Below, in pieces: positions 4,214 through 60,741 of a stretch of 64,000 nt of DNA. How positions within the stretch are numbered: position 1 is the stretch's first letter; every line of letters starts with the position of its first letter. A program made the position numbers and the translations under genes. This DNA comes from Chitinispirillaceae bacterium (GTDB taxonomy: Bacteria; Fibrobacterota; Chitinivibrionia; Chitinivibrionales; Chitinispirillaceae), in assembly GCA_016929595.1 (NCBI GenBank), contig JAFGIN010000113.1:62001-126000 (forward strand), given 5' to 3'. The notes beneath the pieces were generated by a model, which saw nothing but the letters and a program-made list of their open reading frames with translations, ran no database searches and was not told where the DNA came from.

Positions 4214-4951
4214 TCAGAGCATCGCCAGTATGGCATCCATATACTCTGAGATAAAATGGTGCCCTCCTTTGAAAATTATTTGTTCAAAACTGTTACTTGT
4301 CAAATCTGCCCATCGGTTGATCAATGCCTTTGAAACATACTCATCCTCATCCCCACCCAGAGCAATAATCGGACAATTCAGTTGATACCGATGCTGGTAG
4401 GTGTAGGTTTCGTGCAATTTAAAATCAGACCGGCCGATTGGCAGAATAAGTTGCATCAGCTCCTCATTTTCAAAAACCTCCTGTGGCATGCCACCCAGTT
4501 TTTTGAGCTTTTCTTTAAAAATATCATCTGGCAAGTTATGATATGTCTCATCTGCTCTATCAACCTGAGGTGCGTGGTAAGCAGCGACAACTAATCTTAG
4601 TGGTTCAGGCATCTCCTGCTCCTGCAAAAGCATCGCGCATTCATAGGCAATTAGTGCACCCAGACTATGACCAAAAAAGGTAAACGGTTTGTCAAGAAAA
4701 GGCAGCAAGGCTGACACCAATTCCGGTACCAGATCTGCAATGTTCTCTATGCATGGTTCGCTAAAGCGTAATCCCCTACCGGGTAATTGAATTGGCAGAA
4801 AATCGATAGATGGATCTACTTTTCCCAACCAACTCCGGAAAAAAGTAGCATTGGCACAAGCGCAGGGAAAAGCAAAGCACCGGCGTTGTGCTAGCGGATT
4901 TAGCGGTTTATTAGCTAACCAGATATTGCTGCTCAGGGTTTCAATAAACAC
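4214..4951 (-). CDS. Type II thioesterase of the NRPS/PKS operon
   Basis: This 245-residue alpha/beta hydrolase is the length expected for external (type II) thioesterases, which hydrolyse wrong or stalled acyl groups from carrier domains of assembly lines. Visible features are the early FAFPCACANATFFRSW segment typical of the family, the nucleophile motif GHSLG with Ser96, a GGDEDEYV segment near 199-206 that offers the acid (Asp201 or Asp203), and GGHHF with His231 as base. The start is a GTG directly after the NRPS stop codon (TAA then GTG, no spacer), with an AAAGG about 12 nt upstream, so translation is almost certainly coupled to the NRPS. It is the last gene of the PKS-NRPS-TEII operon. 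Function as an editing enzyme is inferred from family and position. Confidence 0.93.
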   Translation of the reverse strand: MFIETLSSNIWLANKPLNPLAQRRCFAFPCACANATFFRSWLGKVDPSIDFLPIQLPGRGLRFSEPCIENIADLVPELVSALLPFLDKPFTFFGHSLGALIAYECAMLLQEQEMPEPLRLVVAAYHAPQVDRADETYHNLPDDIFKEKLKKLGGMPQEVFENEELMQLILPIGRSDFKLHETYTYQHRYQLNCPIIALGGDEDEYVSKALINRWADLTSNSFEQIIFKGGHHFISEYMDAILAML

Positions 4952-42450: not shown

Positions 42451-45400
42451 CTATTTCTTAAACGTCGCAATTGATATAGTAGTTAATGTATCTCCACCTT
42501 TTCTTTCCACCCCTTGTCCACGTACATCCATGATCACTGTCGACACATTGGAGGCATTTGTTTTTAAGGTAAACAGAGCTGCACCCCAACCGGGATTTGA
42601 TGGAGTGTACGTTGCATCGACAACAACACTGGAGAATGGAGGTATTTTAAATGGCGCAGAAACATTGAGTATGAACTCCTTTGAAGAGCTTTGAGCTTTC
42701 TTAATGGTGGTAGTGTCATTACCATGGTTAATGAGTTCAACTGGCAGAACTGATGAAGTTCCTACAGCGACAGCCCCGAAGTTTAAGTCTTCCGGGAGTA
42801 CTTCAATGAGTTTCTGAGCTTTTACCTTCAATTTGCAATTAACAACAAAAGGTCCGGGTGCCCATCCTTTTTCATGCTCGATGATCAACATCCCGTTGTA
42901 TACACCAGAATATAAACCGGAACATTTAAAAGTAACACCGATCGATGCAATACCGCCATCTTTCGGTACTATACCACTGTTCACAGAAGACTTGAGCCAT
43001 CTGCTTGCATTGACTTCATCAGAAGCTATTCTGTAAGTGTAATCGACATTGATAGAACCAAGCTTATTCCCATTTTCCGGATCCAGGTAATCGATAATTT
43101 TATTACTTGAACCCATCAGCATCCGACTGGTTGCTGAATATGCAAGTGCACTGTAGTAATTGTTCACTTTAAATGAGTTTATCAGTTTTCCATCTTCGGT
43201 GGCAAACTCTTCAATTTTCTGATTATCGTTATTGTACATGAAAAGTGTATTTCTATCGCTACAGTAAGTAAAATCAGACTTGTAGGCGTTCATTGTCCAG
43301 GAATAGAGTATCGTTCCAGATTTTTTGTCCAGAAAATAAACTGTTCTGTAATCTGCTACAATCAGTTTATCATCTGTAACTGCCAGGCCTTCCATGTAAA
43401 GAGGTACTTTCAGCGAATCAACAACCTGTTTCCTGACTGGATCAACAATCTGTATAAGATTATTCCAACCTCCAAGGTATATGTACTTTCCATCGAATGC
43501 GATGCTTGATGCTTCTGCATAGGTAAGAATTGTATCAATAGTAATTCCGGATGACGGATCAATCTTAAAGAGACCATCTTTTCTTAATGAATAAATAGCA
43601 CCCGGAGTGTTATTTCCTGTTTCATCAATAAAGACAGATGCTTTAAATCCATAATCCGCACCACCGGTATTTTTTAAACCCACCGCATAATCCGCCTGTT
43701 GACCAGGCAACAGTTTTACAGAAATAGAAGATGGATTGACCTTAATCTTTGGTGGTTTAACTGTTGTAACTGATACATTCACGGATATGAGGGGATTATC
43801 CCTGGCATTGCTTGTTACTTTGATGATTCCTGTCACGGTACCAACTTTTTTTGGAATACATTTCACTTTAAGAGCTATGCTGTCAAAAGCCTCAATCGTA
43901 AATGCCTTTGTGAATGATGTTGAGAATACTGTATTGCTGGTAATAACAGAAGAGACTGTTGTGTTATCATTACCATCATTTACAAGATAAACAAGGGCGG
44001 AATCACTCCGTCCATTCCAGACTTCGTCAAATGAAAGTGATACAGGATTAATATGCAGACGTTTTTCACCACAGACCGACAATGTACATGGAATTATCTT
44101 ATCAGGAAGCAATCCAAAGGTGTGTGACAGCACAATATTTGCGCTATACGTACCAGCTACTAATTTTCTTGTGTCAAACGATGCTCCAAGCGAAAAACTG
44201 TCTTCGCCAGCTACAACACCATCCTTCGTTACAGGACGCAACCAGTTACCACCAGCAGAAACTTCGTCCGCCGCCAGATACCAGAATGAAGTAGTATTCT
44301 GATACTGCTTGATCACAGCTCCATTTTCTGGATTATAAGCAAACAATTTTCCATTCCAGTCGGCAGCAAAGAGAATATCTGCTGAGCTGGAATACGCAAG
44401 GGAAGACAAATCCTTATCAAATGGAAAACTGCCTATTACTTCGCCTGTAAATACATTCCGTTCTTCGATCGTCATGGCAACCGGGTTTATAGCAAATAGA
44501 GAATTTCTGGATCCGGAATAAGCTATATCAAAAACATAATCAGTATTCCATTTATTCACGATTTCATTACTTTTTTTATCAATCGTCAGAACCTCTCCAT
44601 TATTAGAATTGAAGACAAAAATATTATCTTCACTGACGCCAATGGGACCGAAGTAATAATCGCCATTAAAGGTAATTTCTTTAACGACTGTTTTTGTTTC
44701 GGGATCTCCTACAGTGATCGAATTGTAACGTGTGAAGTAGATATATTCTCCATCAAACGCTAATTCATTTATACCCTTCGCAGAATCCCCCAAATCTACA
44801 GAATCAACTGGTTCACCTGATTCGGGATCAATCTTATAGATCGTATTCCAATCAGCACCAAAGAGAGTTGCATCCCTGATATCACTTAACGAGGTTACTT
44901 CAGGCACTTTCACTTTAGCTTTGAAATGATAATCCGCTTCACCACTGTTACTCATAAGTACTCTTGAAGTATCAACGATTCCAAAGTCAAGTTTTTTCTT
45001 CAGATATTCCGGATTCAGAGAAATTTTCGGTGGTGTAATACCTACCCCGTTCAGTATCACACTCAATGATGGATTATCCTCCGCATCACTCGAAACAGTC
45101 ATATTGGCTGTATATGCACCCGCAACAGCAGGTGAAAACCTTACTGGAATTTTTACATTACCAAACGGCTTTATATATAAGGGTAAAGTAAGATTTGCAG
45201 AATACGCCTGATTATTAAAAACACACTCAGAAATAGTTACCTGATCGTTACAATCATTTATAAGAATCACATTAACCGTTGTATCCCGATTTTCCCAGAT
45301 TCTTCCAAAATTGACAGTATCATTCGATGCTGATATTGATCTGCATCCAGCCACATCCGTAGTGACACTGACCATAACATCTTTATGGAAAGGATCATCC

Positions 45401-48400
45401 GTTTTGAAAATTATATCAGCAGTCCACTGCCCCGCTTCAAGTTTTTCCGGATCAGCAGTAATGGTAAATTCCCGGTTTCCTGATGGAACAATCGAGTCCG
45501 GTGTTTTCGGCGCTACTGTAAGCCAGCCATTACCAGCAAGTTCAAGCATTTTCTGAATGTTAAGCCTTCCTCCGGAAGCAGTTTTTCCCAATAGAGGAGG
45601 TATTTTATCAACGCTTTGAAGAACCGCATTTTTAACTTCAATGCTGCCAAGTGATGGATTGTTACTCCAGAGCAGTGCTACAGCTCCAGTTACGTGCGGT
45701 GTCGCCATTGAAGTGCCCGAGTAGAGTTCATAACCATTGTTGGGCACAGTACTCAATATTTCCTGACCAGGAGCACCAAGATCAACAGAATTCAAACCGT
45801 AGTTTGAGAAATCAGCAAGATGATCATTATGATCTGTAGCAGCAACTGCGATTACGTTATCAAGTGTATAACTCGCAGGATAATAGGGATACATATCATT
45901 ATCTGATTGATAACCATTTCCAGCAGCAGCGATGAATATACCTGATGCGGCAATTGCTTCCTCGAGCGCTTGAGAATACCCGCCACCACCCCAGCTGTTG
46001 TTTGTCACATTAACATTCATGATAGTTGCATAATTAACCGCATCAATTGCATCGGAAATCGCACCGGATCCGGAATCGTCAAGAAATTTGATTGCCATAA
46101 CTTTAGCATCCCACATAACCCCTGTAACACCAATACCATTATTTCCTTTTCCTGCAATTGTACCACTGCAATGTGTACCATGGCCATACCCGTCACTTGG
46201 ATCTTTGTCATCGTAAGCAAAATCCCAGCCATAATAATCGTCAATATAGCCATTACCATCATCATCAATTCCGTTATCGGGTACTTCACCAGGATTTTTC
46301 CAGATATTGTCCGTTAAATCCGGGTGCAAGTAATCAATTCCAGTATCAATTACACCGACAAGAATTTCATCAGGACTCCCTGTAAAGGAATCCCACGCTT
46401 CGACCGCATCAATATCCGCATCTGCTTTACCACCAGTCTGGCCTTGATTGTTCATACCATAGAGCTGGCTGAAATACATATCATTTGGCGTATTAATTGC
46501 CTTAACAATATAATCAGGTTCCGCATATTCAACATTAGGATCTCTGCTCAATTTTTGTATAGCTTTCAGGACAGCGTTCTTACCATTTGCAAACAAATTA
46601 ACTTTTAAAATCACTCTTGTATCAAAAGCCTTTTTCTTTGTAATTGGATTGATCCCTTTTGCTAGTTCTACAACAGACTCTGCTCCAATCTGGTTAAGCA
46701 GATTGGTGATCGCGATATTTGATTTACCTTTTTTCAAGCCAACCAGGACTGTCTTTTCAACAAAGGGATTCATATAATTTCTTTTATTATAAATCAGACC
46801 CTTTTTGACATATGGAGTTGTAGTATGATCATTCCGAAACACAGGTCTGCCAGTCTGGCGTATTCTGATTGAATATCCAAGATCTGCCGCGCCGTTATTT
46901 GACAATACAACGGTTCGATCAGCAGGGACGTCTTTTGGCTGGAATGTAAATGTCAGAGCTTCTGGTGAAACAATTGCATTCGGCCCCTCGGTTGCAGTAC
47001 CATATACAGGAACAGTGATACTGCTATTATCCTCAGCATCACTGACAACAGTGATATTGCCGGAGAAATTTCCAATACCTGAAGGATTGAAGACAAACTG
47101 AACCTTTGATGATTTCCTCGCTTTTACACGGATGGAGGATGATTGAACACAAGAGAAAACACCAACATCTGAAGTGATTGAAGAAACCGTCGTTGCTTCA
47201 CTGCCATTGTTAACCAACGTAACTGCAACTGTATCGGTATTGCCATACCAGATCTGATCAAAAACCACTGATTGAGGTTCAATCGTTAGACTGCGGAAAC
47301 CATCAACTGTCATTGAAACAGGTATGACCTTTGGATTAGCTACTGATGGATCATTATGAAAAAGAGATATCTCACCAATGTAAAGACCGCCTATTAATGT
47401 CAATGAATTCAGTTTTGCTGTAAGTGATTCAGATGCGCCTGGAAGAATCGAAAAAGATGCATTTTCCGGTTCAACCTGTAACCATTTATTCCCGGCTCCC
47501 CATTCAATGCTATTGCTGACCATCTGGATAAGATCTCCACCCCAGCAACCATCAACAGGAAAAACATTAATTACTAAAATTGGGTGGTTAGAATTGTATG
47601 CCGCAGCAATAATATTATTACAACTATAATACCCGAGCGCAACTCCATTACCCTGTACTGAAGCAGAATTTGCTATAACAAAACTACTTAAACTTTTAAC
47701 ATCATTGGAAATTTCATGTTGAATGAAATCTTTAGATGTACATGAATCCTTATAGACATTAGCATTTGCAATTGGCATGTATTCAGGAGTAGCGATCCTG
47801 CCTCTTAATTGATAGTCGCCACCCTCTGCAATTGTGGCGACCAGCAGTATTACCATTTTATCATTATCGACATAATCTGCAAGAACATCTCCCAGAAGAT
47901 CCGGGTCTGCCCAGGAAGAATTTGATGAAAGAATAACACAATCGTACTGCATAAGGTAGTCAAGGTTTGGCGTATTTTTCTCTCCGCTTAGTATATCCAA
48001 TGATGCTATTGACGGAATAGATTTCACCCCTTCTGAAAAATAATCAGTTTCACCTTCCCAAAGAATAGTTGTTAAATAAAGGGCTTTTAAATCTCCACCT
48101 TCTAATTTTCCTGGATTATACACATTGGGAATCAAACCCTTACTATCATTCTTTTTTCCATGAAAATACTTAGTAACAGATCTTTCAGTTTTACTCTTAA
48201 TCAGAAGTGGATTCTTCCTTGCCTCCGGTTTGCGGATCTGCCGATCACGTACTGAAACATCCAGGTTGGCATCACCATTATTTGTAAGAGTAACTTCAAC
48301 ACTCAATGAGTCATCTATCATTATATCTTCGACAACAGCCGATGGGTTAACAGACAACAACGGTCTATACATTCTAAAATCATACTGTACTGCAGGAGGA

Positions 48401-50907
48401 ACAGAAAATTCCATCGTATCAGAGACAAGAAAACCTGATGCATTAGCCCAGACAGAATAGGTTCCTTCAATGAGTTTGCAGCAATACAAACCATCTGCAT
48501 CAGTCGTTACACTTCCGGACATCGGTCCGCAGTAGAAAACTGATGCACCAGGAATCGGTGTATCACCGGTATTCGCAAGGACAACGCCACTGATCGTACT
48601 GGACCTGAACACATTGACTGGAACGTCAAGATTCCAGATACTGTCTCCGGAATTAACTGATAATGTTAAATGCACAGTATATGGTGTTGGACAATCTGCA
48701 CTGACACTTATCTCGAAGGCATCGGACACCGGAACTGCAGCTCCACAACAATTGATTGCCGGTAAATTTGAACTGGCAGATTGTACTGTCACATATTGAT
48801 CATTACCACTGAGAATACAGCTGGCTTCCCGGGAAGCTTCAGATCCAACATTTTGTACAGTAACCGAAAGATCAACTGATTCACCTGGATTGCAGATATG
48901 ATCGCCATTGCCATCATCATCTGCTATCGACTGTCCTGAATAAACAAGTGATGGCGCCTGAATAAGACCTCGCAGCATTGTATATGGATCACCAAATAAT
49001 GTTGTCTCATACATACAGTACCGTATCAACTCTTCATTTAAACACCATAAATTATCTTCATGACTATCGGCATTCAGGTCACCAATCCGGGAGATAAATT
49101 CATTAAAAAAGGCATCCCAGAATTGTCGATCAAAACGTTGGCTGGGTCCGTCAAGGTTTTCTCTTGATTCATTATATGAACCATATCCATAGACGGTATT
49201 AAAAACAACAGCAAACATACCTGAACGAGTAGATGTTGTCAGATGCTCTGCCATACAATCTACAGGAAAATGCCCAGGATAACACCCCTGTGAATAGGTA
49301 AACAGCGGATTTATATTTGTAAGCTTATCAGCTTCATTGTTGTAGAATTTCATCACATATTGTTCATTCGCATGTCCCAGATGATTTACTATTGAATATT
49401 CACCGGAATTAATAATTTTCAGTATACTGTCTGCTCCCCAATCAAACTTTGGTTTGTCATACAGCGTATCCTCAGCAAATGCAGTAAAATCAATAAAACC
49501 TTTTGTTGTATACCCGGATGCTGATGATCCAAGCCTGATCTCTTCCATATACGGAGTTGCATAACTGAATTCACCAGGTCCGAACTGTTCTCCCAGATAT
49601 TCTCCGGCAATACATGCTCTTGTCAAATAAGGTGTACCAGCTGGCAGGTTTTCATATGTAAGAACTTTGTAAATAAAGTTTGCCATCTCTTCGGGAGTTT
49701 CAGCAGAAATTCTTCCTATAGATACTTCAGACATCAAATCGACATCTGTTCCCCCATCTCCATCAGTTGGCTCACCCCAGTACGTGTCTCCATCACTATT
49801 AAAGGGACCATCAAGACACTGGAAATACAGATCACTTGGAATGTACTCCCCTTCACAATACAAATTTCTATATGGTACAATCGAAACATCACCGCCGAGC
49901 ACCACATATTGTGTGTTCCAGTTTGTATAAGCATCGATTATGAAATTCCTTACCTTTTCAGCATCATCAACACCCGTGTAATTGCTCAGAATATCTTCAA
50001 TAGAAATAACTGTTGCACTCAGCCCCTGTGACTGTCTTTGCACAATCAGATCATTAACCGAAGGTGTTGTTTTGGCATCCCGTATCGATTGTGAAGTTAT
50101 CAAAACGTAAGCGTTTGTTTCAGCCGTGCTGCAAAAACCCCCATTTTTATCATTTGTGAGTGTGCTTGCACCATTTTCGTAGGTTTCCAGAGCATCTGGA
50201 TTCTCCACTCCAAGCCCCGACGGATTAAGTTGATCCTTTTTTACGGGAACTGAACCTTTTAATCTCTTATTATCATCTTTCAAAGTTATAAGTAATTCTA
50301 AATTCGAATATATTGTAATTTTACCCGATTTTGGATAATACTGAACCGGATTCAAATTAACAATAGCAATTGTGACCCCTTTCTTTTTTTGAATCGTCAC
50401 TAATGATCCATTTTCTGCTGGGTAGGGATCATCGTTCTGATATATTTCTGAATTTGGTACCGTTTTTTTAAACTTTGCACCTTTAATTAAGGGTATCTTT
50501 GCTTTACCAAATTCGACGAAATTATTCCCCCATAGTGTTGTTTTTTGATTACGTTGAATTTCGATTGAAGCGATTGTTTTTCCAGCTGGCACAATAAACT
50601 GGGCAGGCACTACTGGTAAAACAGGTTTTCCTTCATCACCTGTCAGAGGTGCATTTCCAAGGTATAATCGCTTGACATTTTCACCTCCATACTTTTCTTT
50701 TAATGTAACAAGATCTGCATCAGGTATTTTATAATTGAAAGTAAGTTGTCCTGTGCCTGTAGTACCAACCTCTACCATTACCGGCTTTTTACCCGGAACA
50801 TCCATCATTGCCTCAGCTTTTTTGTACTTCGCCTGCGAAATACCCGTAAACAAAGAAAGAACAGCAAGAAAAACAACCTTGGATTTCAGAACATTTTTTC
50901 TGAACAT
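42451..50907 (-). CDS. Secreted giant peptidase combining a C25 gingipain-type and an S8 subtilisin-type domain
   Basis: About 2818 residues after choosing the ATG at 50907, which has AAGGGG upstream and begins a clear signal peptide (MFRKNVLKSKVVFLAVLSLF, cleaved near ISQA). A propeptide-like region is followed by a C25 cysteine peptidase domain (about 210-640) with His near 512 (NHLGHANEQY) and Cys near 541 (SQGCYPG). Next come a CARDB-like domain, a carboxypeptidase-regulatory-like domain, a ThuA/glutamine-amidotransferase-like segment and a Hydin-type Ig domain. A complete subtilisin domain (about 1440-1790) has Asp near 1521 (VIDTGID), His near 1579 (GHGTHCSG) and Ser near 1732 (GTSMATPHV). 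The remainder alternates Hydin-type domains with two beta-propeller-like stretches. No C-terminal sorting motif is recognisable. The roles would be extracellular protein breakdown or protein maturation; which, is unknown. Confidence 0.92.
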   Translation of the reverse strand: MFRKNVLKSKVVFLAVLSLFTGISQAKYKKAEAMMDVPGKKPVMVEVGTTGTGQLTFNYKIPDADLVTLKEKYGGENVKRLYLGNAPLTGDEGKPVLPVVPAQFIVPAGKTIASIEIQRNQKTTLWGNNFVEFGKAKIPLIKGAKFKKTVPNSEIYQNDDPYPAENGSLVTIQKKKGVTIAIVNLNPVQYYPKSGKITIYSNLELLITLKDDNKRLKGSVPVKKDQLNPSGLGVENPDALETYENGASTLTNDKNGGFCSTAETNAYVLITSQSIRDAKTTPSVNDLIVQRQSQGLSATVISIEDILSNYTGVDDAEKVRNFIIDAYTNWNTQYVVLGGDVSIVPYRNLYCEGEYIPSDLYFQCLDGPFNSDGDTYWGEPTDGDGGTDVDLMSEVSIGRISAETPEEMANFIYKVLTYENLPAGTPYLTRACIAGEYLGEQFGPGEFSYATPYMEEIRLGSSASGYTTKGFIDFTAFAEDTLYDKPKFDWGADSILKIINSGEYSIVNHLGHANEQYVMKFYNNEADKLTNINPLFTYSQGCYPGHFPVDCMAEHLTTSTRSGMFAVVFNTVYGYGSYNESRENLDGPSQRFDRQFWDAFFNEFISRIGDLNADSHEDNLWCLNEELIRYCMYETTLFGDPYTMLRGLIQAPSLVYSGQSIADDDGNGDHICNPGESVDLSVTVQNVGSEASREASCILSGNDQYVTVQSASSNLPAINCCGAAVPVSDAFEISVSADCPTPYTVHLTLSVNSGDSIWNLDVPVNVFRSSTISGVVLANTGDTPIPGASVFYCGPMSGSVTTDADGLYCCKLIEGTYSVWANASGFLVSDTMEFSVPPAVQYDFRMYRPLLSVNPSAVVEDIMIDDSLSVEVTLTNNGDANLDVSVRDRQIRKPEARKNPLLIKSKTERSVTKYFHGKKNDSKGLIPNVYNPGKLEGGDLKALYLTTILWEGETDYFSEGVKSIPSIASLDILSGEKNTPNLDYLMQYDCVILSSNSSWADPDLLGDVLADYVDNDKMVILLVATIAEGGDYQLRGRIATPEYMPIANANVYKDSCTSKDFIQHEISNDVKSLSSFVIANSASVQGNGVALGYYSCNNIIAAAYNSNHPILVINVFPVDGCWGGDLIQMVSNSIEWGAGNKWLQVEPENASFSILPGASESLTAKLNSLTLIGGLYIGEISLFHNDPSVANPKVIPVSMTVDGFRSLTIEPQSVVFDQIWYGNTDTVAVTLVNNGSEATTVSSITSDVGVFSCVQSSSIRVKARKSSKVQFVFNPSGIGNFSGNITVVSDAEDNSSITVPVYGTATEGPNAIVSPEALTFTFQPKDVPADRTVVLSNNGAADLGYSIRIRQTGRPVFRNDHTTTPYVKKGLIYNKRNYMNPFVEKTVLVGLKKGKSNIAITNLLNQIGAESVVELAKGINPITKKKAFDTRVILKVNLFANGKNAVLKAIQKLSRDPNVEYAEPDYIVKAINTPNDMYFSQLYGMNNQGQTGGKADADIDAVEAWDSFTGSPDEILVGVIDTGIDYLHPDLTDNIWKNPGEVPDNGIDDDGNGYIDDYYGWDFAYDDKDPSDGYGHGTHCSGTIAGKGNNGIGVTGVMWDAKVMAIKFLDDSGSGAISDAIDAVNYATIMNVNVTNNSWGGGGYSQALEEAIAASGIFIAAAGNGYQSDNDMYPYYPASYTLDNVIAVAATDHNDHLADFSNYGLNSVDLGAPGQEILSTVPNNGYELYSGTSMATPHVTGAVALLWSNNPSLGSIEVKNAVLQSVDKIPPLLGKTASGGRLNIQKMLELAGNGWLTVAPKTPDSIVPSGNREFTITADPEKLEAGQWTADIIFKTDDPFHKDVMVSVTTDVAGCRSISASNDTVNFGRIWENRDTTVNVILINDCNDQVTISECVFNNQAYSANLTLPLYIKPFGNVKIPVRFSPAVAGAYTANMTVSSDAEDNPSLSVILNGVGITPPKISLNPEYLKKKLDFGIVDTSRVLMSNSGEADYHFKAKVKVPEVTSLSDIRDATLFGADWNTIYKIDPESGEPVDSVDLGDSAKGINELAFDGEYIYFTRYNSITVGDPETKTVVKEITFNGDYYFGPIGVSEDNIFVFNSNNGEVLTIDKKSNEIVNKWNTDYVFDIAYSGSRNSLFAINPVAMTIEERNVFTGEVIGSFPFDKDLSSLAYSSSADILFAADWNGKLFAYNPENGAVIKQYQNTTSFWYLAADEVSAGGNWLRPVTKDGVVAGEDSFSLGASFDTRKLVAGTYSANIVLSHTFGLLPDKIIPCTLSVCGEKRLHINPVSLSFDEVWNGRSDSALVYLVNDGNDNTTVSSVITSNTVFSTSFTKAFTIEAFDSIALKVKCIPKKVGTVTGIIKVTSNARDNPLISVNVSVTTVKPPKIKVNPSSISVKLLPGQQADYAVGLKNTGGADYGFKASVFIDETGNNTPGAIYSLRKDGLFKIDPSSGITIDTILTYAEASSIAFDGKYIYLGGWNNLIQIVDPVRKQVVDSLKVPLYMEGLAVTDDKLIVADYRTVYFLDKKSGTILYSWTMNAYKSDFTYCSDRNTLFMYNNDNQKIEEFATEDGKLINSFKVNNYYSALAYSATSRMLMGSSNKIIDYLDPENGNKLGSINVDYTYRIASDEVNASRWLKSSVNSGIVPKDGGIASIGVTFKCSGLYSGVYNGMLIIEHEKGWAPGPFVVNCKLKVKAQKLIEVLPEDLNFGAVAVGTSSVLPVELINHGNDTTTIKKAQSSSKEFILNVSAPFKIPPFSSVVVDATYTPSNPGWGAALFTLKTNASNVSTVIMDVRGQGVERKGGDTLTTISIATFKK

Positions 50908-51760
50908 ACAATCCCCTTCCTCTGAGAATAAATGGTCTCCAAGAAATGACATCCAGACCTGAATACAGGCCACTATTTTTGAGAACAACAATATTCAGCT
51001 GTTTTGAATAACACGAAAATAACGATTTCACCAATGAAACATTATCATCAGACTGAGAATCACTATTTCAATAAAAAACTGTTTAAAAATGGAAAATCCT
51101 ATGGACGAACTGAGATTCAAAAAGAGCAGCATTTCAATTACATTTTATACATCTATATTGATATAATTAGAATATACCCTTCCCAATTCTATATGATAAG
51201 CCTATGGATAGTAATCTACATCAATCAACTCATAATGTCAAATAGATAGTAATGATTTTTTATCTTTTACTATAAGTTCAGTGTAGTACTTGCATTGAAA
51301 TTTTTCAGATATTAGTAACCTTGAAATTTTAAATGCCGGCAGCAGTGATAAAAAGGTGTTTACAATCCCCCCGTAAGGGAAAACACTCTTTGATAGAAAA
51401 GTTGGGATGGAGTTTTTCAATACACTTTTTGGAATTATTTAGAGATAAGAAATACTGCATTGTGTAGATCCTGTCTGTTTTTTATAATGGTTAACCTTAC
51501 AATGGTTTGAGAGTGATTTTGATCCTTTTATTAATGTATTAGAGTATTCTCCGTATTACGCTTGTTTATTGACCTTATTAGGCAACGAGTTATAGAACAA
51601 AGCGATTCCCCGATTGGAATATCGGGAAATCCGGAATGACTTCTGATGCACATACCTGCAAAGTTTTCCTGACCGAAACGCTTGTAAAATCATGCTCTCA
51701 ACAATTTAACATTCCAATCCTTGTAACATCAGGTATTCAAAGTATGGCCGAGGGGATTTT
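50908..51760. other. AT-rich intergenic region between the C25-S8 and M14 peptidase genes
   Basis: About 850 bp with no supported gene; both flanking genes are on the minus strand. It should contain the promoter of the C25-S8 gene. Two inverted repeats are visible: CCCGAT/ATCGGG with a six-base loop at 51609-51626, and an interrupted GTGTTT/AAACAC pair at 51356-51386. Neither has a T-run. A plus-strand frame (51582-51779) is open but has no recognisable product and overlaps the end of the M14 gene. Confidence 0.5.
50913..50918 (-). promoter_or_regulatory. Ribosome binding site deciding the C25-S8 peptidase start
   Basis: AAGGGG lies five bases before the ATG at 50907, which begins the signal peptide. 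The longer in-frame start at 50991 would bury that signal peptide behind 28 residues. Confidence 0.7.
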
Positions 51761-53500
51761 TTACAACATAGATTCGTCATAAAACCCCTGCTGGATTGTT
51801 CCACGAATTCTTATTGTGCCACTTTGATTAATGTGCATCTGTACTGTACCGGAAGGATCTTTCAGGACAATACCTCCTGTTAAATTTGATGCAGCATTCA
51901 GGAATGATCCTGAATTTCCAATAAGTGAGCTTCGGTTCAGATTACCATATGCGTCAATAGATACTTTAGGTTGACTGGTTTTGAATGCCAAACCATAGTG
52001 AGTACTCGTTTCTTCAACTCCGTGTATATAATTGTTACCGTTTGTTGCGTTTACCACCATCTTTGAAGAATTATTTAATTGGATTGAAATCCTGCTATTA
52101 GTGCTGTTTTTCTGCAACTGAGCATTCAGAAATACCGGCTGAGAAGCTCCAAGTGTTCTATTCGTAAACGTTTGACTTGTATAACCTGTAGAACGTATAG
52201 TTATAGTGTATGTCCCCTGTGGAGCAAACCTGGCAAATATTCCATTGCTGCTTGAATATATTCCGGAACGGACCTGATCATGCCCGGAAAGCTCTATTGA
52301 AACCGGTATTGGCAACCCTGTCTGAGCATCAGTAACTTTTCCTCTGAAACCATTCAATGCTGATTCGATATACCCCAGTAATGCTTCACGGTTGTAGTTC
52401 CAGTGATTTAATAGCTCACTTTCCGGTAAAAATTTTACATCAGACAGCTCTATGGCAGCTTCCCGTGCCCGATGCCAGTAATTGATATAATCTGCTTTGG
52501 TACCATAAGCTATGTAATATGATGCAGCCCAGATAATCCCGTTATTCCCTCCAGTAAAATAACCTGCAGGACTTACATTTTGAACTGTAGATGCATATGT
52601 ACGACCAATAGTTTCATACCAGTCCCAGTCTGCCTGCATTGCTTCAATACCAAACCATGGCCCGACAAAAGCTTCCATTCCGCCATGAATATCTGCAGAG
52701 AGGACAATCCTGTGGGATTCAAGAAATTGCAGATATGCAAGATTCTCTTTTTGAATCTCATTACCATCACCGGTTGTACCCGTCACTGGCTCAGGCATAT
52801 TTCTGTTAAGATCAACACCATTTGCATTCGACCGCCATGGATTACTGATCACATCACCCGACCGATAAGCCCCATCAGGGTTAGCAAGTGGAAAAATGTA
52901 AATATCAAGACTATCAAGAAGTTTTTTGATCCTTGATGACGATGAATAATTCACGAGAAGGTAATCGATTAATTTTGTCAGCACAAACAGACCCACAGTC
53001 TCATCTCCATGAATTGTACCTGTCAGCAGGACGCCGGGTTTGATAGTCAGACTGGACACATTTGAAGTTATCTTTGCAGCAAGTAGTTGCCTGTTGTTTA
53101 CGCTTTTTCCGATCTCCTCAATTTTACATAGTGTAGGAAAGGAACTTTGAAAACCATTCATTGTGGAAACAAACCCAGTGTACGTCGGATAAGTATTGGC
53201 AATACTCCACGCCTTCTCTGTCTCCTTTACGGTATACTGCTCACCGGGACTTTTCAGTATCTGATAGTTATACCCTCTCCCTAAAAACTCTTCAAACTGC
53301 TTCTTGTTTGCATATGCAAACACAGTCCCGTTTTCCACTTTATCGATTGAAACCAATCTTGTTATTGATTCGATCTCCCCGGCATATCGAATGTTGAAAG
53401 AAAAATAGATCTGGCTTGGATCTGTCACGGCAAATGATGAAACTACAAAAATTAAAATGAAAACACTAAAGATTCTTACCTTAAATGAAAAGTATTTCAT
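51761..53500 (-). CDS. Secreted M14 zinc carboxypeptidase with regulatory-like and shared C-terminal domains
   Basis: 579 residues from ATG 53500, chosen because GGAGGG sits directly upstream; a longer frame start would use that site as coding sequence. A signal peptide ends near residue 26. The M14 domain (about 100-380) has zinc ligands His164 and Glu167 (HGDE) and His272 (ADIHGG), the substrate-binding NR pair at 232-233 and a catalytic Glu351 in IELSD. Together they predict an active carboxypeptidase that trims C-terminal residues outside the cytoplasm. A carboxypeptidase-regulatory-like beta domain follows (about 384-455). The last 100 residues resemble the C-terminal part of the clan CD peptidase at 55658-56866, pointing to a shared anchoring, sorting or binding module. 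It faces divergently from the tail-fibre operon. Confidence 0.93.
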   Translation of the reverse strand: MKYFSFKVRIFSVFILIFVVSSFAVTDPSQIYFSFNIRYAGEIESITRLVSIDKVENGTVFAYANKKQFEEFLGRGYNYQILKSPGEQYTVKETEKAWSIANTYPTYTGFVSTMNGFQSSFPTLCKIEEIGKSVNNRQLLAAKITSNVSSLTIKPGVLLTGTIHGDETVGLFVLTKLIDYLLVNYSSSSRIKKLLDSLDIYIFPLANPDGAYRSGDVISNPWRSNANGVDLNRNMPEPVTGTTGDGNEIQKENLAYLQFLESHRIVLSADIHGGMEAFVGPWFGIEAMQADWDWYETIGRTYASTVQNVSPAGYFTGGNNGIIWAASYYIAYGTKADYINYWHRAREAAIELSDVKFLPESELLNHWNYNREALLGYIESALNGFRGKVTDAQTGLPIPVSIELSGHDQVRSGIYSSSNGIFARFAPQGTYTITIRSTGYTSQTFTNRTLGASQPVFLNAQLQKNSTNSRISIQLNNSSKMVVNATNGNNYIHGVEETSTHYGLAFKTSQPKVSIDAYGNLNRSSLIGNSGSFLNAASNLTGGIVLKDPSGTVQMHINQSGTIRIRGTIQQGFYDESML

Positions 53501-53950
53501 AAAACCCTCCAAACTGATTAAATTAGTAAAATTATAATATATCCATTATAAAACCAATATGTCAATAGACATCAAAATAATTTACATACTGTTTATTAAT
53601 TCAGGAGTTGAAACAAATATCTATATATAATGAAATGAAAATAAGGTTGTAATGAAATTATAGTAATCGTCTGGTATACCTTTGTCATGGTTAAAAAATT
53701 AAGCATAATTGATCATACAGTAGTATTCCTCACATTTCCATATCAGTCTTTTTCATGACATTTTTAATATCTTTCATTACCAATTTTAGCGTTCTCGTTC
53801 CTTTTCAGAGTTCTTTGACATAAAAAGAATTATATTATTCTTGATAAAGTATGTATATGATCTTTTAAAAGTTTATACTTTTTTAACCAATTTTAATTTG
53901 TCATATGCGATTATTTCGCCTTGTAACATTATTTCCAAAGGAGTTTTTCA
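53501..53950. other. Divergent AT-rich promoter region between M14 and tail-fibre operon
   Basis: 450 bp between divergently transcribed genes, so promoters for both directions are expected here. A TTGACA hexamer at 53815-53820 points toward the plus-strand operon, but I see no good -10 box at the usual spacing. The 12-base string TTTTAGCGTTCT at 53784-53795 also occurs at 42441-42452. No gene was found. Confidence 0.5.
53505..53510 (-). promoter_or_regulatory. Ribosome binding site deciding the M14 peptidase start
   Basis: GGAGGG lies four bases before ATG 53500. The upstream in-frame ATG at 53512 would place this site inside the coding sequence, so the start at 53500 is preferred. Confidence 0.75.
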
Positions 53951-54826
53951 ATGAATGTACGTTTTGCTTCTTCGCTGGTAGTAAGTGCTGCATTTGCTGC
54001 AACAGTTTTCGCTCAGGGTTGGACTGATGGCGGCACCAAAGTTTACCTGACAACAACAGGTGACAAAGTAGGAATCGGTACTACATCACCAAACTCGACA
54101 TCGAAACTTCATGTAGAAGGAACCATTCGTGTTGATCAGAGAATCATGGCTGATGATGCCGGTGGTCTCGAACTCGCAACCGATGAAGGCACCGTTCGAC
54201 TGAAAATTAATGACAATGGTAATGTTGGTGTTGGAACAACAAGCCCGACGCAAAAATTGCAGGTCTCCGGAGGTGGATTGATGGCTGATTCCGCAATAAT
54301 ACAGAATGCAACATCTCCAGTTGTAAATATACGCAAAACAGCAACCGCTTCTACATATACAAAAATCACCGATAATCAAATCAGGGTTAATGTTACTGGT
54401 ATGGGTGGTGGCGCGTCATCAACAATTACTCCAGGCAATGCTACATTCAATGGTAATGGACCAAACACGGTAATCAGCGGATCTACCATCTCTTGTAAAA
54501 CAGGTCCCAACGCTACAGCAACAACAGTTATCACTCCGGCATCTGTAAAATCACCAAAATTTGAAGTGGGAACCAACGGTTGGTCGATTACTGCGCCTGA
54601 CTACGTTTTTGCTTCGGATTATAACCTCATGCCACTTTCCCAGGTTGAAAAATTCGTCTCTGAAAACAAGCACCTCCCAGGTGTACCAAGTGCAAAAGAA
54701 ATGGAAGAAAAAGGACATGTTGATCTTGTCGAAATGAATCTTACACTTCTCAAAAAAGTTGAAGAACTTACGCTTCATGCAATAACTCTGGAAAAACGCG
54801 TAGTTGAACTTGAAACAACCAATTAA
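53951..54826 (+). CDS. Exported tail-fibre-like protein with C-terminal coiled coil
   Basis: 291 residues with an N-terminal signal peptide (cleaved after VFAQ, near residue 22) and AAAGGAG before the ATG. The middle has repeats of the phage tail-fibre type (VGIGTTSP, VRLKINDNGNVGVGTTSP). The end carries the NLMPLSQVEKFV...HLPGVPSAKEMEEKG segment and a final coiled coil (about 255-288). This C-terminal block is common in Bacteroidota and related bacteria in large surface proteins, where it probably helps trimerise a fibre. The SxD catalytic dyad of self-cleaving S74 chaperone domains is not evident. First gene of a three-gene plus-strand operon with an exported unknown protein and a clan CD peptidase. 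A role in surface attachment is inference. Confidence 0.8.
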   Translation: MNVRFASSLVVSAAFAATVFAQGWTDGGTKVYLTTTGDKVGIGTTSPNSTSKLHVEGTIRVDQRIMADDAGGLELATDEGTVRLKINDNGNVGVGTTSPTQKLQVSGGGLMADSAIIQNATSPVVNIRKTATASTYTKITDNQIRVNVTGMGGGASSTITPGNATFNGNGPNTVISGSTISCKTGPNATATTVITPASVKSPKFEVGTNGWSITAPDYVFASDYNLMPLSQVEKFVSENKHLPGVPSAKEMEEKGHVDLVEMNLTLLKKVEELTLHAITLEKRVVELETTN

Positions 54827-54872
54827 TTCAATTAACTAAAACGGATTCCGGAAATATTTGAAAGGAAAAACT

Positions 54873-55646
54873 ATGCAAATAAAAGCTATTGCTCATTGTC
54901 TTGCGACGCTGTGCCTGCTGAGTTTAGCGGGGACAGGATTTGCTCAGGATGATGAACTGTTAGAAACTGATGTTATCGATCAATATGATGCACCAGAGGG
55001 TAGTCAGTCACTGTTGAAAGGTGACAATGACGAGCTGGTTTCCTATTCTCCTGGTACCACAGATCTCAATATCATTCAAAAGGAGAAGGGAAGGAAAAGT
55101 ATTCCAATGAACTATCGCTGGTCTAAACCCTTCAAAGCAATTACCAGAAACAATGGTACTTATGTTATGCTTGCAGAAAACGGAGACCTGTTTAATTCTA
55201 ATAAATTGAATGGACAGGAAAATAGGGTTATGAATGTAAAAGACAAGCTTTTCAAAAAGGGAAACACAGAAAAAACAGCCGGTACAGTTCAAATGGATAT
55301 GATCGCTGCAGCTGGAAACGATGTATACCTGATCATCAACCAGGGCTGGAGCAGTCGCATCGTATCGGTGAATTCCGAATCGTCTGGCGAAACATTTATC
55401 TCCTATATTGAAGGAATACCTTCAGGAGTCGAAGTAAAAAATGGAACTGTCTACTATGTGTATAACAGCCAGGCTGGAGAATCTTTTATGAAAGCTGTAC
55501 CGTCAGACGGTTCTGGTAAAACCATTTCAAGAGCCAAGTTGCCCTGTAACAACGCGCAGGGTATCAGTGCAGAGAATGGTGTATATTATACTCTCTGCAA
55601 ATCCGAAGGAAAAGTATACAAATTCACTATCAGGGATAAGGAATAA
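54873..55646 (+). CDS. Exported protein of unknown function, beta-propeller-like pattern
   Basis: I do not recognise a family. From the ATG at 54873 (AAGGA eight bases upstream; a TTG 15 bases earlier is less likely) the product has 257 residues. There is a clear signal peptide ending near GTGFAQ, an acidic N-terminal stretch, and then repeated short strands with patterns such as NGTYVMLAENGDLF, NDVYLIINQGWSS and NGTVYYVYNSQAGES. These suggest a small beta-propeller of the kind that reports sequential values along a chain. It lies between the tail-fibre-like gene and the clan CD peptidase gene, 12 bases before the latter, and is surely co-transcribed with it. A partner or substrate-binding role for the peptidase is possible but only a guess. 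Confidence 0.75.
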   Translation: MQIKAIAHCLATLCLLSLAGTGFAQDDELLETDVIDQYDAPEGSQSLLKGDNDELVSYSPGTTDLNIIQKEKGRKSIPMNYRWSKPFKAITRNNGTYVMLAENGDLFNSNKLNGQENRVMNVKDKLFKKGNTEKTAGTVQMDMIAAAGNDVYLIINQGWSSRIVSVNSESSGETFISYIEGIPSGVEVKNGTVYYVYNSQAGESFMKAVPSDGSGKTISRAKLPCNNAQGISAENGVYYTLCKSEGKVYKFTIRDKE

Positions 55647-55657
55647 AGGAGAACAGC

Positions 55658-56866
55658 ATGAATTTAAAAGGAATTTTAGCAGGCGCGCTGATTCTGCTTA
55701 CATCATATTCTGCTTATCCCAGAATATTTGCAATTGTAAGCAGTGGAGGAAGAGCTACATCTGATAATACGATGTATCATACCGAATACTGGATCGATCT
55801 TTTTTCAGCTTATGAAACCCTTATTGCACATGGACTTACCCATGATCAGATAACGGTAGCATATGGAAACGGAACCGACTTTATTTCAAGTACCGACCGT
55901 TTCCGTAATAAATGGACTAACGAAATAGCACAGATCACCGACATGTCCTGTACCAGCAACAACCTCAGGGCAGCATTTGTTAATTTACGAGGAGTAATGA
56001 CCAATAATGACACCCTTCTTTTCTGGTGGGCAATAGGTCATGGAAGTTCAGGTCCTCACGGTTCTGAGCGTATGGATCTATATGAATTTCAGATTCCTGG
56101 AGGCACATCAATCAGGGATGATCAACTGGCAGCCTGGGCTGATACTATACAAAATTACCGATTGAGAATTTTTTTATGGGGTACCTGTACTTCCGGTGGC
56201 ATCAGAGATGACCTGGCGAATAATCGTACGGTTGTACTTACAGCCTGCGAGTTTAACCAATATCATCATTCAACCAGTCTCCCAGCACCGCTAAACGTCC
56301 AACCTACAGCTGAATTCCCCTATTGGGTACGGAATTTTATTGATGGCCACAACACCATTGGAACTGCAACTGATGCCGACAGAATCAGCGGTATATTCAA
56401 CAATAATAGAATCGATCTAACTGAACTGCGAGATTCAATTGAAACGCATTATGTTGCATCATCAGGTAATCATCCCCAAATCGGTGATGCCGGCAGTCAG
56501 GCTACCAATGTGTATCCTATCAATGTAGATTGGAAAAACTGTATCGATATCAAACGGAACACCACCACTAATGGCCGTTTTACACAGTCAGGATATGTCC
56601 AATCGAGAGGTAACTCAGCAACTGGTACACTTGCAGGTCTGATCTTCCAGAAGAGCGGAAGCTCCGGTGCATCATTTGCAACCAGTGGTAACTTTATCAG
56701 ATCTGCACTCTCAACTCAGGATACCACATGGCTTAACAATACTGCAAATCATACCGGAAATTTTGTCATCAAAAGTCCCGCTGGCATAGCAGTAGCTGCT
56801 ATCCAAAGCACAGGAAGAGCTCGCCTTCGTGCCTGGACTGCACCACAACACCCCAGAATGCAATAG
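55658..56866 (+). CDS. Secreted clan CD cysteine peptidase (legumain/caspase-like) with shared C-terminal domain
   Basis: 402 residues with AAGGAG before the ATG and a signal peptide ending near residue 20. The catalytic part (about 22-260) begins with FAIVSSGG and has His128 in AIGHGSSG and Cys177 in GTCTSGG, each after a hydrophobic strand. This is the pattern of C13/C14-type clan CD enzymes, related in fold to the gingipain domain encoded nearby. The closest named family is legumain-like C13, but specificity is not predictable. Residues about 295-395 align with the C-terminus of the M14 carboxypeptidase over roughly 67 positions (GL.F, RS.L, TG..V.K.P.G), suggesting a common targeting or binding module. 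It is the last gene of the operon and is followed by a strong hairpin terminator. Confidence 0.82.
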   Translation: MNLKGILAGALILLTSYSAYPRIFAIVSSGGRATSDNTMYHTEYWIDLFSAYETLIAHGLTHDQITVAYGNGTDFISSTDRFRNKWTNEIAQITDMSCTSNNLRAAFVNLRGVMTNNDTLLFWWAIGHGSSGPHGSERMDLYEFQIPGGTSIRDDQLAAWADTIQNYRLRIFLWGTCTSGGIRDDLANNRTVVLTACEFNQYHHSTSLPAPLNVQPTAEFPYWVRNFIDGHNTIGTATDADRISGIFNNNRIDLTELRDSIETHYVASSGNHPQIGDAGSQATNVYPINVDWKNCIDIKRNTTTNGRFTQSGYVQSRGNSATGTLAGLIFQKSGSSGASFATSGNFIRSALSTQDTTWLNNTANHTGNFVIKSPAGIAVAAIQSTGRARLRAWTAPQHPRMQ

Positions 56867-57119: not shown

Positions 57120-58991
57120 ATGGGTCTGAATTCAATATTTTTTTCTCAAATAGTGTATCTCTGCATCAGTATTTTTTGTACTTCTGGAGCAGCAGCCACG
57201 CCTTGCACTCCTTATACGCTTACAGACAATAAAACATTCAGTGTACATTGGAACTATTTCTACTATTTCAAGGATACCTCGAATTCCTGTTCAATAGAAA
57301 CCCTGCACAACTCAACCAATATTCAATTTACCCGATTTCCCTCCGGAGCACCATCTATTACCTGTAAACCTTACACCCACTGGATCAGGATTTCCGCGCA
57401 CAATCCATTTGATGAACCAGTCAGCGGAACGCTGGTGTTTGATGATGCCAATATTTATGATCTCACATTCTTTCACCTGCGTCCTGATACCACAATAAGC
57501 CTCAGTACAGGGACACGCTATCCATATTACCATCGTGACATAAATGATTCCCGTTTTGCATTCAGCTGTCAGTTTCCTCCAAAATGTACTTCAACAATTT
57601 ATCTCAAATGTATTGGTGGTACTTACCTGGGTCTTCCCGTATCCCTTACTGATAATGCCACCTTCAGAAACAATGCGGACAACCGCAATTTATCCAATGG
57701 CCTGGTTTTCGGGATCATTTTGTTTTTCGGCGTTTCAGCTTTATTTTTTTCGATAATATATCATGACATGAATTATCTGTACTTTGCCTTGTTTATTCTT
57801 TTTTATACATTCATGCTTACGATCAGGGATGGGTTTTCCTATCGGTATTTCTGGCCTTTATATCCATTTCTACAGCAGCACCTTTTCCCCTTAGCATTCG
57901 CGATATCCTCTGTTGCTTCGGTTTTATTCTCATTACGTTTTCTCTGCGTAAACAGTCACCAAAAACTGGTTACCCGTATTGCGAATGTTCTCATTGGCGG
58001 TTGGATACTTTTTATTCTTATTTCCATTATCGATCCCCGATATCTCTCCGGTTTAATTCTGAATCCAATGATTGCTGCTACACTAATTTTTATTCCGTTA
58101 CTAGCAGTTCTTAACCATCAGTATCTTGACAAACCCTCACAAATGTACGTTTACATATGGTCTATTTTCATCGTAGTTGTTCTACTAAGAGCAATCTTTT
58201 TTTCATTTGCCTTACAGGGTCCCCCCATGCTTATGCATTTCTTTCATACCGGGTACAATCAGCATTATTTACTGGTTTTTATAGCACTATTCACATCTCT
58301 GGCAATCGGCTTTCGTGTTCGAAAAATGCAAATCGAAAGCAACGCAGCGATACTTGAAGCCTCTATTCTTCGCCAGAAAACGCTCGAACTCCAACTCAGT
58401 AATCTTCAGGCAAGGATACAACCACACTTTCTTTATAATATTCTCAACACCATTGCTAACCTTGTTTTTGTTAACGCGAAAAAAGCTGAAAAAGCCATTG
58501 TCGAGCTTTCCACTTTTTACCGGACAATCCTTAAACATGTTATGTACAATACAATCACCCTCGATAAGGAGATGGATATAGTAATCCGATATCTTTATCT
58601 TGAAAAAATTCGTTTCGGCAAGCGGCTATCTTATTCAATTTCTTTTGATAAGGAATGTCAAAACGTTAAAATTCCGTCAATGGCGATACAGGTTCTGGTT
58701 GAAAATAGCCTTAAACATGGAATTCACCCCAAAATTGACGGGGGCTCAGTTACCATTACCGTGAAAAAAAAAGGGAATCGATGCGAAATAATCGTTGCCG
58801 ATACTGGAATCGGTTTAACCAATGTAAAAAACTGTAACGGTACAGGACTTAAAACCCTGCACGACCGTTTGGATCTTGTTTTTCCCGGCGATTTTCATTT
58901 TGAGATAAAGGATACGATGCAGAATAAGGATACTACCGGTGTGATTGTCACCATAAATATACCCTGTTCCTTTAATCATGCACTCAATTAA
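57120..58991 (+). CDS. LytS-type membrane sensor histidine kinase (7TMR-DISM)
   Basis: 623 residues. A signal peptide-like start is followed by an extracytoplasmic domain (about 27-195) of the 7TMR-DISM extracellular type, thought to bind small ligands such as carbohydrates. About seven transmembrane segments follow (about 198-400), then a coiled linker and a His_kinase/HATPase region. His436 in QPHFLYNILNTI is the phosphoacceptor typical of LytS/YehU-class kinases; VLVENSLKHGI is the N-box and DTGIGL the G1 box. The partner should be the LytTR response regulator at 59983-60741, which is separated only by an opposite-strand gene. ATG 57120 has AAGG close upstream. The ligand and the regulon are unknown; the nearby exported-protein operon is a possible target. 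Confidence 0.9.
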   Translation: MGLNSIFFSQIVYLCISIFCTSGAAATPCTPYTLTDNKTFSVHWNYFYYFKDTSNSCSIETLHNSTNIQFTRFPSGAPSITCKPYTHWIRISAHNPFDEPVSGTLVFDDANIYDLTFFHLRPDTTISLSTGTRYPYYHRDINDSRFAFSCQFPPKCTSTIYLKCIGGTYLGLPVSLTDNATFRNNADNRNLSNGLVFGIILFFGVSALFFSIIYHDMNYLYFALFILFYTFMLTIRDGFSYRYFWPLYPFLQQHLFPLAFAISSVASVLFSLRFLCVNSHQKLVTRIANVLIGGWILFILISIIDPRYLSGLILNPMIAATLIFIPLLAVLNHQYLDKPSQMYVYIWSIFIVVVLLRAIFFSFALQGPPMLMHFFHTGYNQHYLLVFIALFTSLAIGFRVRKMQIESNAAILEASILRQKTLELQLSNLQARIQPHFLYNILNTIANLVFVNAKKAEKAIVELSTFYRTILKHVMYNTITLDKEMDIVIRYLYLEKIRFGKRLSYSISFDKECQNVKIPSMAIQVLVENSLKHGIHPKIDGGSVTITVKKKGNRCEIIVADTGIGLTNVKNCNGTGLKTLHDRLDLVFPGDFHFEIKDTMQNKDTTGVIVTINIPCSFNHALN

Positions 58992-59768: not shown

Positions 59769-59964
59769 GATTTTTCCTCTTTTTTTGTTAAATAGTTACC
59801 TAAAACTGCTTTATTGGAAAAGATTCAGGATAAGAATCCTACGATAATTTCGGGAGGAAAATATACTATTGACTTCTTTTTCTGCAACAAAAAAAAATTT
59901 TCTGAAAAAATGTAAAATTTCTCACTATGTTAAAATAAACAATTATTATATTTTATTTTTTAAA

Positions 59965-59971
59965 AAGGAGG
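59965..59971 (+). promoter_or_regulatory. Ribosome binding site deciding the response-regulator start
   Basis: AAGGAGG lies 11 bases before ATG 59983. The longer frame start at 59869 is a TTG that would add a Lys-rich tail unlike any receiver domain. Confidence 0.7.
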
Positions 59972-59982
59972 CTGCACAGATT

Positions 59983-60741
59983 ATGGGTTATCGGACTCTG
60001 ATTGTTGATGATGAACCTGCGGCTTCAGACCGTCTCCTTCGCATGCTTTCCCAGATAAACGCACCTTGTGACATAATCGGCAATGCATTGAATGGTTACG
60101 ATGCGCTGATGATGATAAACAGGTCAAAACCCGATATCGTTTTTCTTGATATAGAATTACCGGGAATCAAAGGAATAGAATTACTTCGTCATTGTACCTG
60201 CGATCCATACATCGTTTTTACAACTGCATATGATGACTATGCAATAGAAGCCTTTGAGTCAAATGCTATATCTTATCTGGTAAAGCCTTTTTCAGAAAAG
60301 AATTTAATTGCGGCAATAAACAAACTAATAAAAATTACATGCATCCCAGCCAATAAATATTCTACATTACTTCAACCACTTTCTTCAGAATTGCAAACCG
60401 CCCCCTTGTCTTTACTTCCTGTTAAATATGGTGATTCAATTTTGCTTTTAAAAAAGGAGTTAATCATCTGGATCAGGGCAGAGGGAAGATATACGGTTAT
60501 TATGACAAAAGAAAAGCAGTATGTGAGCAATTACTCCATTACTGAACTGGCGGAGCGTCTGAATTCACCTCATTTTATCCGTATACACCGTAGCTACATC
60601 GTTAATCTTAAACATGTAACTGAATTACGCAAAATAGGCATTGGAAAATTTAAAATTATAACCGATTCAGTCGATACAGAAGAAATGGTAGTTAGTAAAA
60701 ACTACTATGAGGAATTGAAAAAACGTCTTGATATAGATTAA
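59983..60741 (+). CDS. LytTR-family response regulator
   Basis: 252 residues from ATG 59983. The receiver domain (about 3-120) has the acidic pair Asp9-Asp10, the phosphoacceptor Asp56 in VFLDIELPG, a TTAYDDYA segment and the conserved Lys in VKPF. The C-terminal LytTR DNA-binding domain (about 150-250) has WIRAEGRYTVI, the FIRIHRSYIVN core and a final YYEELKKRL. Such regulators pair with LytS-type kinases and bind short direct repeats upstream of targets, often cell-surface or secreted-protein genes. The likely partner is the 7TMR-DISM kinase at 57120-58991. The degenerate phosphatase-like gene follows after four bases and is probably on the same transcript. Confidence 0.92.
   Translation: MGYRTLIVDDEPAASDRLLRMLSQINAPCDIIGNALNGYDALMMINRSKPDIVFLDIELPGIKGIELLRHCTCDPYIVFTTAYDDYAIEAFESNAISYLVKPFSEKNLIAAINKLIKITCIPANKYSTLLQPLSSELQTAPLSLLPVKYGDSILLLKKELIIWIRAEGRYTVIMTKEKQYVSNYSITELAERLNSPHFIRIHRSYIVNLKHVTELRKIGIGKFKIITDSVDTEEMVVSKNYYEELKKRLDID

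Follow-up and report, generated by a model that had tools for sequence, protein, structure and literature searches.

The window analysed here, a 64,000-nucleotide stretch of contig JAFGIN010000113.1 from a Chitinispirillaceae bacterium, encodes two secreted peptidases of unrelated kinds that end in the same C-terminal module, and a gene for a phage-tail-like fibre lies between them. The module is restricted to the C-termini of peptidases, and its genes stand in the neighbourhood of fibre genes. With about even confidence, we favour the view that it is a fibre-partner domain of exopeptidases, acting in docking or co-sorting and replacing a tail of the type IX secretion system (T9SS). By this mechanism the peptidase would be exported by Sec and then cross the outer membrane, and its C-terminal module would dock on a trimeric, phage-tail-like surface fibre or be co-sorted with the fibre to the surface, whereby one fibre array would carry several different peptidases. 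What is new is a domain that has no name so far, together with its link to fibre genes; the same link points to a role for GCX_COOH (3-coathanger stack, NF045639), a domain of Bacteroidota fibre loci. Among openly licensed papers, none was found on the coathanger stack, on the endosialidase chaperone in connection with T9SS, or on a fibre domain linked with T9SS, a sorting domain or a peptidase.

The fibre gene (53951–54826, plus strand) encodes a signal-like N-terminus, a VGIGTTSP-type shaft and a helical C-terminal end, and is flanked by both peptidase genes. Its divergent neighbour, 438 bp away, encodes an M14 zinc carboxypeptidase (51761–53512, minus strand; Pfam Peptidase_M14, E 2.4e-47) with a CarboxypepD_reg domain (E 1.5e-10) and a hydrophobic N-terminus. 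In the same plus-strand run as the fibre, and separated by gaps of 31 and 11 bp, follow a gene for a small exported-looking protein (54858–55646, plus strand; hydrophobic N-terminus, weak DUF5050 match at E 0.0017, below the curated cut-off), to which no function is assigned, and the gene for a secreted, clan CD-like cysteine peptidase (55658–56866, plus strand). The sequence-only reading had named both enzymes. Its M14 assignment agrees with Pfam; the clan CD assignment is a putative one, drawn from the motifs AIGHGSSG and WGTCTSGG, read by eye, and from a weak hhalign alignment with three C13-like neighbours of Bacteroidota fibres (E 0.0059, Prob 6). No Pfam family matched this second enzyme, and an HMM (hidden Markov model) of its catalytic domain found no relative in Bacteroidota. 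Within the phylum it has two relatives, one with the module (genome G017) and one, a 297-residue frame in G030, without it.

The ends of the two window enzymes had been said to align over about 67 residues with a single gap, and this similarity is real. Their BLOSUM62 local alignment scores 98, about 12 s.d. above the mean of 4000 residue shuffles (mean 30.9, s.d. 5.7, maximum 63), none of which reached the real score, and the stretch from GL.F to R.R contains a single gap of 1 residue. The limits drawn at first were too narrow, as the alignment and later copies extend the shared tail to about 105 residues and to five kinds of peptidase. In the window the module spans 51764–52078 (minus strand, M14 enzyme) and 56543–56863 (plus strand, clan CD-like enzyme), with profile matches at E 2.6e-45 and E 8.0e-47, each sequence being itself a row in the model's alignment. 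By eye it consists of three units of 25–30 residues; in each, a turn joins two strands, the second of which closes in an I...G.i..rG-like pattern. With the units U1–U3 delimited by eye ahead of the comparison, the profile score was 15.7 for U1–U3 (100 shuffles, maximum 9.9), 12.3 for U1–U2 (maximum 9.6) and 9.3 for U2–U3 (shuffle maximum 8.4), the last over six columns only; the repeated make-up is well seen in two of the three unit pairs. The module is unmatched in Pfam, NCBIfam and PHROGs, and the PDB sequences gave three matches only, to WD-repeat proteins at E 0.76–0.80, which we take as chance.

A search of the bacterium's own genome with either window end retrieves the other (E 1.1e-5 and 1.2e-5) and, at E 0.004, one more copy, the third of the genome (6.6 Mb). 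This copy closes a 1026-residue protein (G000:C55), which combines an M4 peptidase with a pro-peptide (FTP, PepSY) and beta-helix domains. An initial scan of 60 genomes showed one close copy, in the clan CD ortholog of G017. Once the profile had been extended over two rounds, 167 phylum genomes yielded eight copies in four genomes: three in the own genome (G000), one in G017, one on a C25 enzyme in G160, and three in G166 on enzymes assigned to S8 by a Pfam scan of one protein, the other two having near-identical ends. The carriers are thus peptidases of five kinds (M14, clan CD, M4, C25 and S8), and in the 167 genomes the module was found on nothing else. All eight copies are C-terminal, the profile match stopping 0–18 residues short of the C-terminus. 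A hydrophobic stretch at the N-terminus, read without a signal peptide predictor, is common to the eight proteins. The sequence-only reading had named a lack of further copies in the genome as grounds for giving up its proposal; the third own-genome copy and the five in three other genomes of the phylum show that such copies exist. Weaker matches, in the own genome at C48 (E 5.7) and C83 (E 0.9), were discarded, as were those in G001, G008, G032, G142 and G103, dismissed as chance likeness; for these the proteins were read in G008, G032 and G142, and the sequences of G001 and G103 contain internal stops.

In seven of the eight cases a fibre gene belongs to the same gene cluster as the module; the remaining copy begins 201 bp from the edge of its contig. 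For five copies the fibre is the adjacent gene: the divergent M14 gene of the window, the M4 gene (C55), the G017 gene and both copies on G166:C199. In the last four the module gene directly follows the fibre gene. One gene intervenes between fibre and module for the window clan CD enzyme, and two intervene in G160. A profile of the fibre end has three matches in the own genome (one at a contig end), solely at the two module-bearing loci. Because all copies with readable flanks share a cluster with a fibre gene, a fibre-partner domain fits better than the new sorting domain of this lineage that had been proposed. The latter idea holds up in so far as the module is C-terminal on N-terminally hydrophobic proteins and, in the M14 enzyme, occupies the position of a T9SS-like tail. 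That the module signals sorting throughout the lineage is unlikely, because copies are few (three in the genome, in four of 167 genomes) and fibre-bound. The G160 locus (L051) also holds, near its fibre and C25 module enzyme, a second fibre-like protein, the end of which by eye resembles an S74 chaperone, together with a matrixin-like metallopeptidase (PF00413, E 4.1e-5, slightly short of the cut-off); the positions concerned are 612–1523 and 2984–4249.

The fibre itself resembles, in its shaft, a described class of surface fibres. Against PDB sequences (phmmer), its shaft is homologous to the MAT fibres of Bdellovibrio bacteriovorus, with matches to Bd2133 (8ond, E 4.3e-6) and Bd3182 (8ojn, E 5.3e-4), and the protein matches tail fibre in PHROGs. 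A Foldseek search with the predicted fibre structure returned MAT fibres for all of its top ten hits, none of them significant (best E 0.67). MAT fibres form trimers at the cell surface and vary in their tips, and a beta-rich domain of about 130 residues after the signal peptide is a trait of their superfamily, according to excerpts of PMC10769870. Like them, the window fibre has a signal peptide-like start. It differs from them in its helical end, modelled confidently at residues 229–290, which is not an S74 domain and has no sequence kinship with any solved tip: no Pfam family, S74 included, matched the fibre protein at E up to 1, no known NS74 tip was recognised, and the C-terminal end found no PDB relative by profile. 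This end carries the conserved pattern GW.I.APDYVF..HLPGVPSA..LLKKVEELTL (54530–54817, plus strand; A2 profile E 9.6e-46, a row of the model's own alignment). We infer that this fibre would likewise form trimers and stand at the cell surface. Partner peptidases are not part of the MAT fibre description in those excerpts (PMC10769870).

An equivalent neighbourhood exists in Bacteroidota, with GCX_COOH as the C-terminal domain. A scan of named genomes for the fibre end gave 79 loci, the best 79 of at least 562, nearly all of them in Bacteroidota with a few labelled Rhodobacter, Sulfitobacter or Lentisphaeria. None of the 3741 ORFs (open reading frames) in these 79 loci carries the module. The loci contain 152 fibre ORFs, 26 of them without a usable downstream gene, and the last 130 residues were tested in 68 complete post-fibre proteins of at least 150 residues. 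GCX_COOH was found in 10/68 and the T9SS type A model TIGR04183 in 27/68, as against 0/68 and 8/68 in controls. These controls were 68 proteins picked randomly out of 167 that have a hydrophobic N-terminus, and according to the HMM built here L134 among them is GCX-like. Peptidases are frequent among 67 of these post-fibre proteins (a 2102-residue one was left out for size): C13 in eight, M12-like in four, C25 in three, and C1, M28 and S8 in one each, with family counts that may overlap. All six are absent among the 25 of 98 control families listed. The same HMM detects a GCX-like domain in 35 ORFs of the fibre loci, of which 27 stand directly after a fibre gene. A whole-genome search for GCX_COOH, meant to lessen the fibre-centred bias, covered 13 genomes chosen for holding fibres or modules, not at random, and found 19 genes in nine of them; 13 genes lie behind a same-strand fibre gene, 12 within 75 bp and one at 641 bp. 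In G035, a genome without the module, GCX_COOH sits on an S8 enzyme behind a fibre gene.

GCX_COOH and the module resemble each other as small domains that lie close to the C-terminus, or right at it, in secreted proteins, many of them peptidases, with a gene close to the same fibre type. In both, the gene can stand close behind the fibre, an association found here and not a published criterion, although the M14 gene is divergent. They differ in length (49 positions for GCX_COOH, about 105 residues for the module) and in that a T9SS type A tail often comes after GCX_COOH but not after the module. GCX_COOH had no match in the module proteins scanned, nor genome-wide in the four module genomes. 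On the simplest account both are partner domains of such fibres, docking on them or co-sorted with them.

Several observations weigh against this account. The fibre end occurs in 12 of 60 genomes, the own genome included, and only two of these 12 hold the module, so that the fibre does not require it; other fibres precede YD/RHS-type or GCX_COOH proteins. For six of the 19 GCX_COOH genes no fibre gene is adjacent: a single genome accounts for four of them and a second genome for one, and the last is at 4.7 kb. Fibre adjacency is also compatible with joint regulation or a shared export route. The AlphaFold model of the module, made from two sequences, is all-beta with seven strands at a pLDDT (predicted local distance difference test) of 42 and was not used for fold search. 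Kinship of the module with GCX_COOH was rejected on sequence, with 17/60 shuffled controls reaching the profile score. Derivation of the module from the fibre shaft remains a weak possibility; the visible likeness scores 52, but the profile Prob is 3%, although 0/60 shuffles reach the profile score. Among order-level relatives, four loci (L056, L057, L059 and L060, in G024 and G033) have a fibre gene and then proteins of about 740–780 residues, with YD-repeat matches in the three scanned and no peptidase.

For the window M14 enzyme, the module can be set against the tails of homologs. Within the order, the catalytic part of this enzyme matches 21 relatives at E < 1e-20, spread over three further genomes (G013, G024 and G030). 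Of these, 19 were read; 18 have complete ends, all of which by eye resemble T9SS type A or FlgD-like tails, L188 is truncated, and the module occurs in none. The module therefore stands in place of a T9SS-like tail in the M14 protein beside the fibre gene. G024 and G030 alone hold 11 and 8 such M14 paralogs at E < 1e-20, several of them clustered and with T9SS-like tails. T9SS is possibly present in Fibrobacterota (excerpts of PMC11285876), and SprA_N, from the T9SS translocon gene sprA, is found above the cut-off in all four module genomes (G000, G017, G160 and G166).

These findings are also what would favour the foremost alternative, in which the module is a new T9SS cargo signal, a C-terminal domain for export and anchoring read by the translocon or by a shuttle, and the fibre is merely co-regulated cargo. 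The structural side offers it some further support: the weak model of the module is all-beta, and according to excerpts of PMC12618676 type A tails are seven-stranded beta sandwiches and type B tails are gene-linked to PorP/SprF shuttles. A general signal would be expected genome-wide, yet there are three module copies, at two fibre-near loci, against at least 123 matches to TIGR04183 in the same genome (G000; loose E 0.01, a lower bound from 150 of 213 candidates scored). Of the eight module proteins, five were scanned, namely the window M14 and clan CD enzymes, the M4 and C25 proteins and one S8, and with E allowed up to 1 none of them matched the type A (TIGR04183) model, the type B (TIGR04131) model or any other NCBIfam T9SS tail model. 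The linked gene encodes a fibre, and none of the four window proteins scanned was recognised as PorP/SprF-like. We regard a T9SS signal of this kind as possible but doubtful.

Seen against the two tail types, the module holds the C-terminal place that tails resembling type A domains (TIGR04183 / PF18962) have in homologous M14 enzymes, and like type A domains it is beta-rich; unlike them, it has few copies, is bound to fibre loci and sits on proteins without a model match. With type B domains (TIGR04131) it shares the linkage of a C-terminal domain gene to a dedicated partner gene (excerpts of PMC12618676), with the differences that the type B model is unmatched and that the partner here is a fibre rather than an outer-membrane barrel. 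Fibre docking and a role in secretion are not mutually exclusive, and by analogy with type B tails and their shuttles the module may have a secretory role as well. The fibre itself need not depend on T9SS, because the fibre end also occurs outside the T9SS phyla, in tandem genes at L075, L125 and L149 on contigs labelled Rhodobacter and Sulfitobacter, unless these are contaminants.

Small C-terminal beta domains of secreted hydrolases often bind substrate, and the module could accordingly be a domain that exopeptidases have acquired, independently of the fibre, for binding substrate, glycans or the cell wall. Enzyme and fibre could even share a target, because one MAT fibre binds prey glycans (excerpts of PMC10769870). 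A domain common to five kinds of peptidase and to nothing else in 167 genomes, with copies near fibre genes, makes this improbable. Still more improbable is an intramolecular chaperone or pro-domain, a folding aid or inhibitor that would later be cut off. The C-terminal position would suit it, and S74 domains at fibre ends have a chaperone-type role of this sort (excerpts of PMC10769870), yet the same module sits on unrelated peptidase folds, M14 homologs manage without it, and the M4 protein already contains a pro-region of its own (FTP, PepSY). That the beta-rich ends are alike by chance or through low complexity, as the mere 31% identity between the window copies might suggest, has a negligible probability given the shuffles, the third copy on an unrelated enzyme and a profile that reached other families of the phylum in two rounds.

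Elsewhere in the window, an apparent membrane histidine kinase and a LytTR-type response regulator, both read by eye, lie just past the peptidase locus (57120–58991 and 59869–60741, plus strand) and are possible regulators. A 2846-residue ORF (42451–50991, minus strand) joins a region weakly matching a PorU2 relative to an S8-like protease region and to several choice-of-anchor D domains, and lacks the module. Two adjoining minus-strand ORFs (4952–31096 and 31100–37417) encode 8714 and 2105 residues, very long for a bacterium.

Beyond this lineage, we tentatively suggest, at less than even confidence, that an undescribed surface apparatus of two parts is common to Bacteroidota and their relatives. 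It would consist of a trimeric, phage-tail-like fibre and of one or more secreted enzymes, often peptidases, whose genes come directly after the fibre gene; interchangeable beta-stack couplers at the C-terminus, the module and GCX_COOH among them, would hook the enzymes to the fibre. If so, adhesion and proteolysis would be combined on one fibre. Should the coupling be real, it would explain how several unrelated peptidases come to be at one surface structure in some T9SS-bearing bacteria, and it would supply a simple rule for finding more of them, which is to inspect the gene that follows the fibre.

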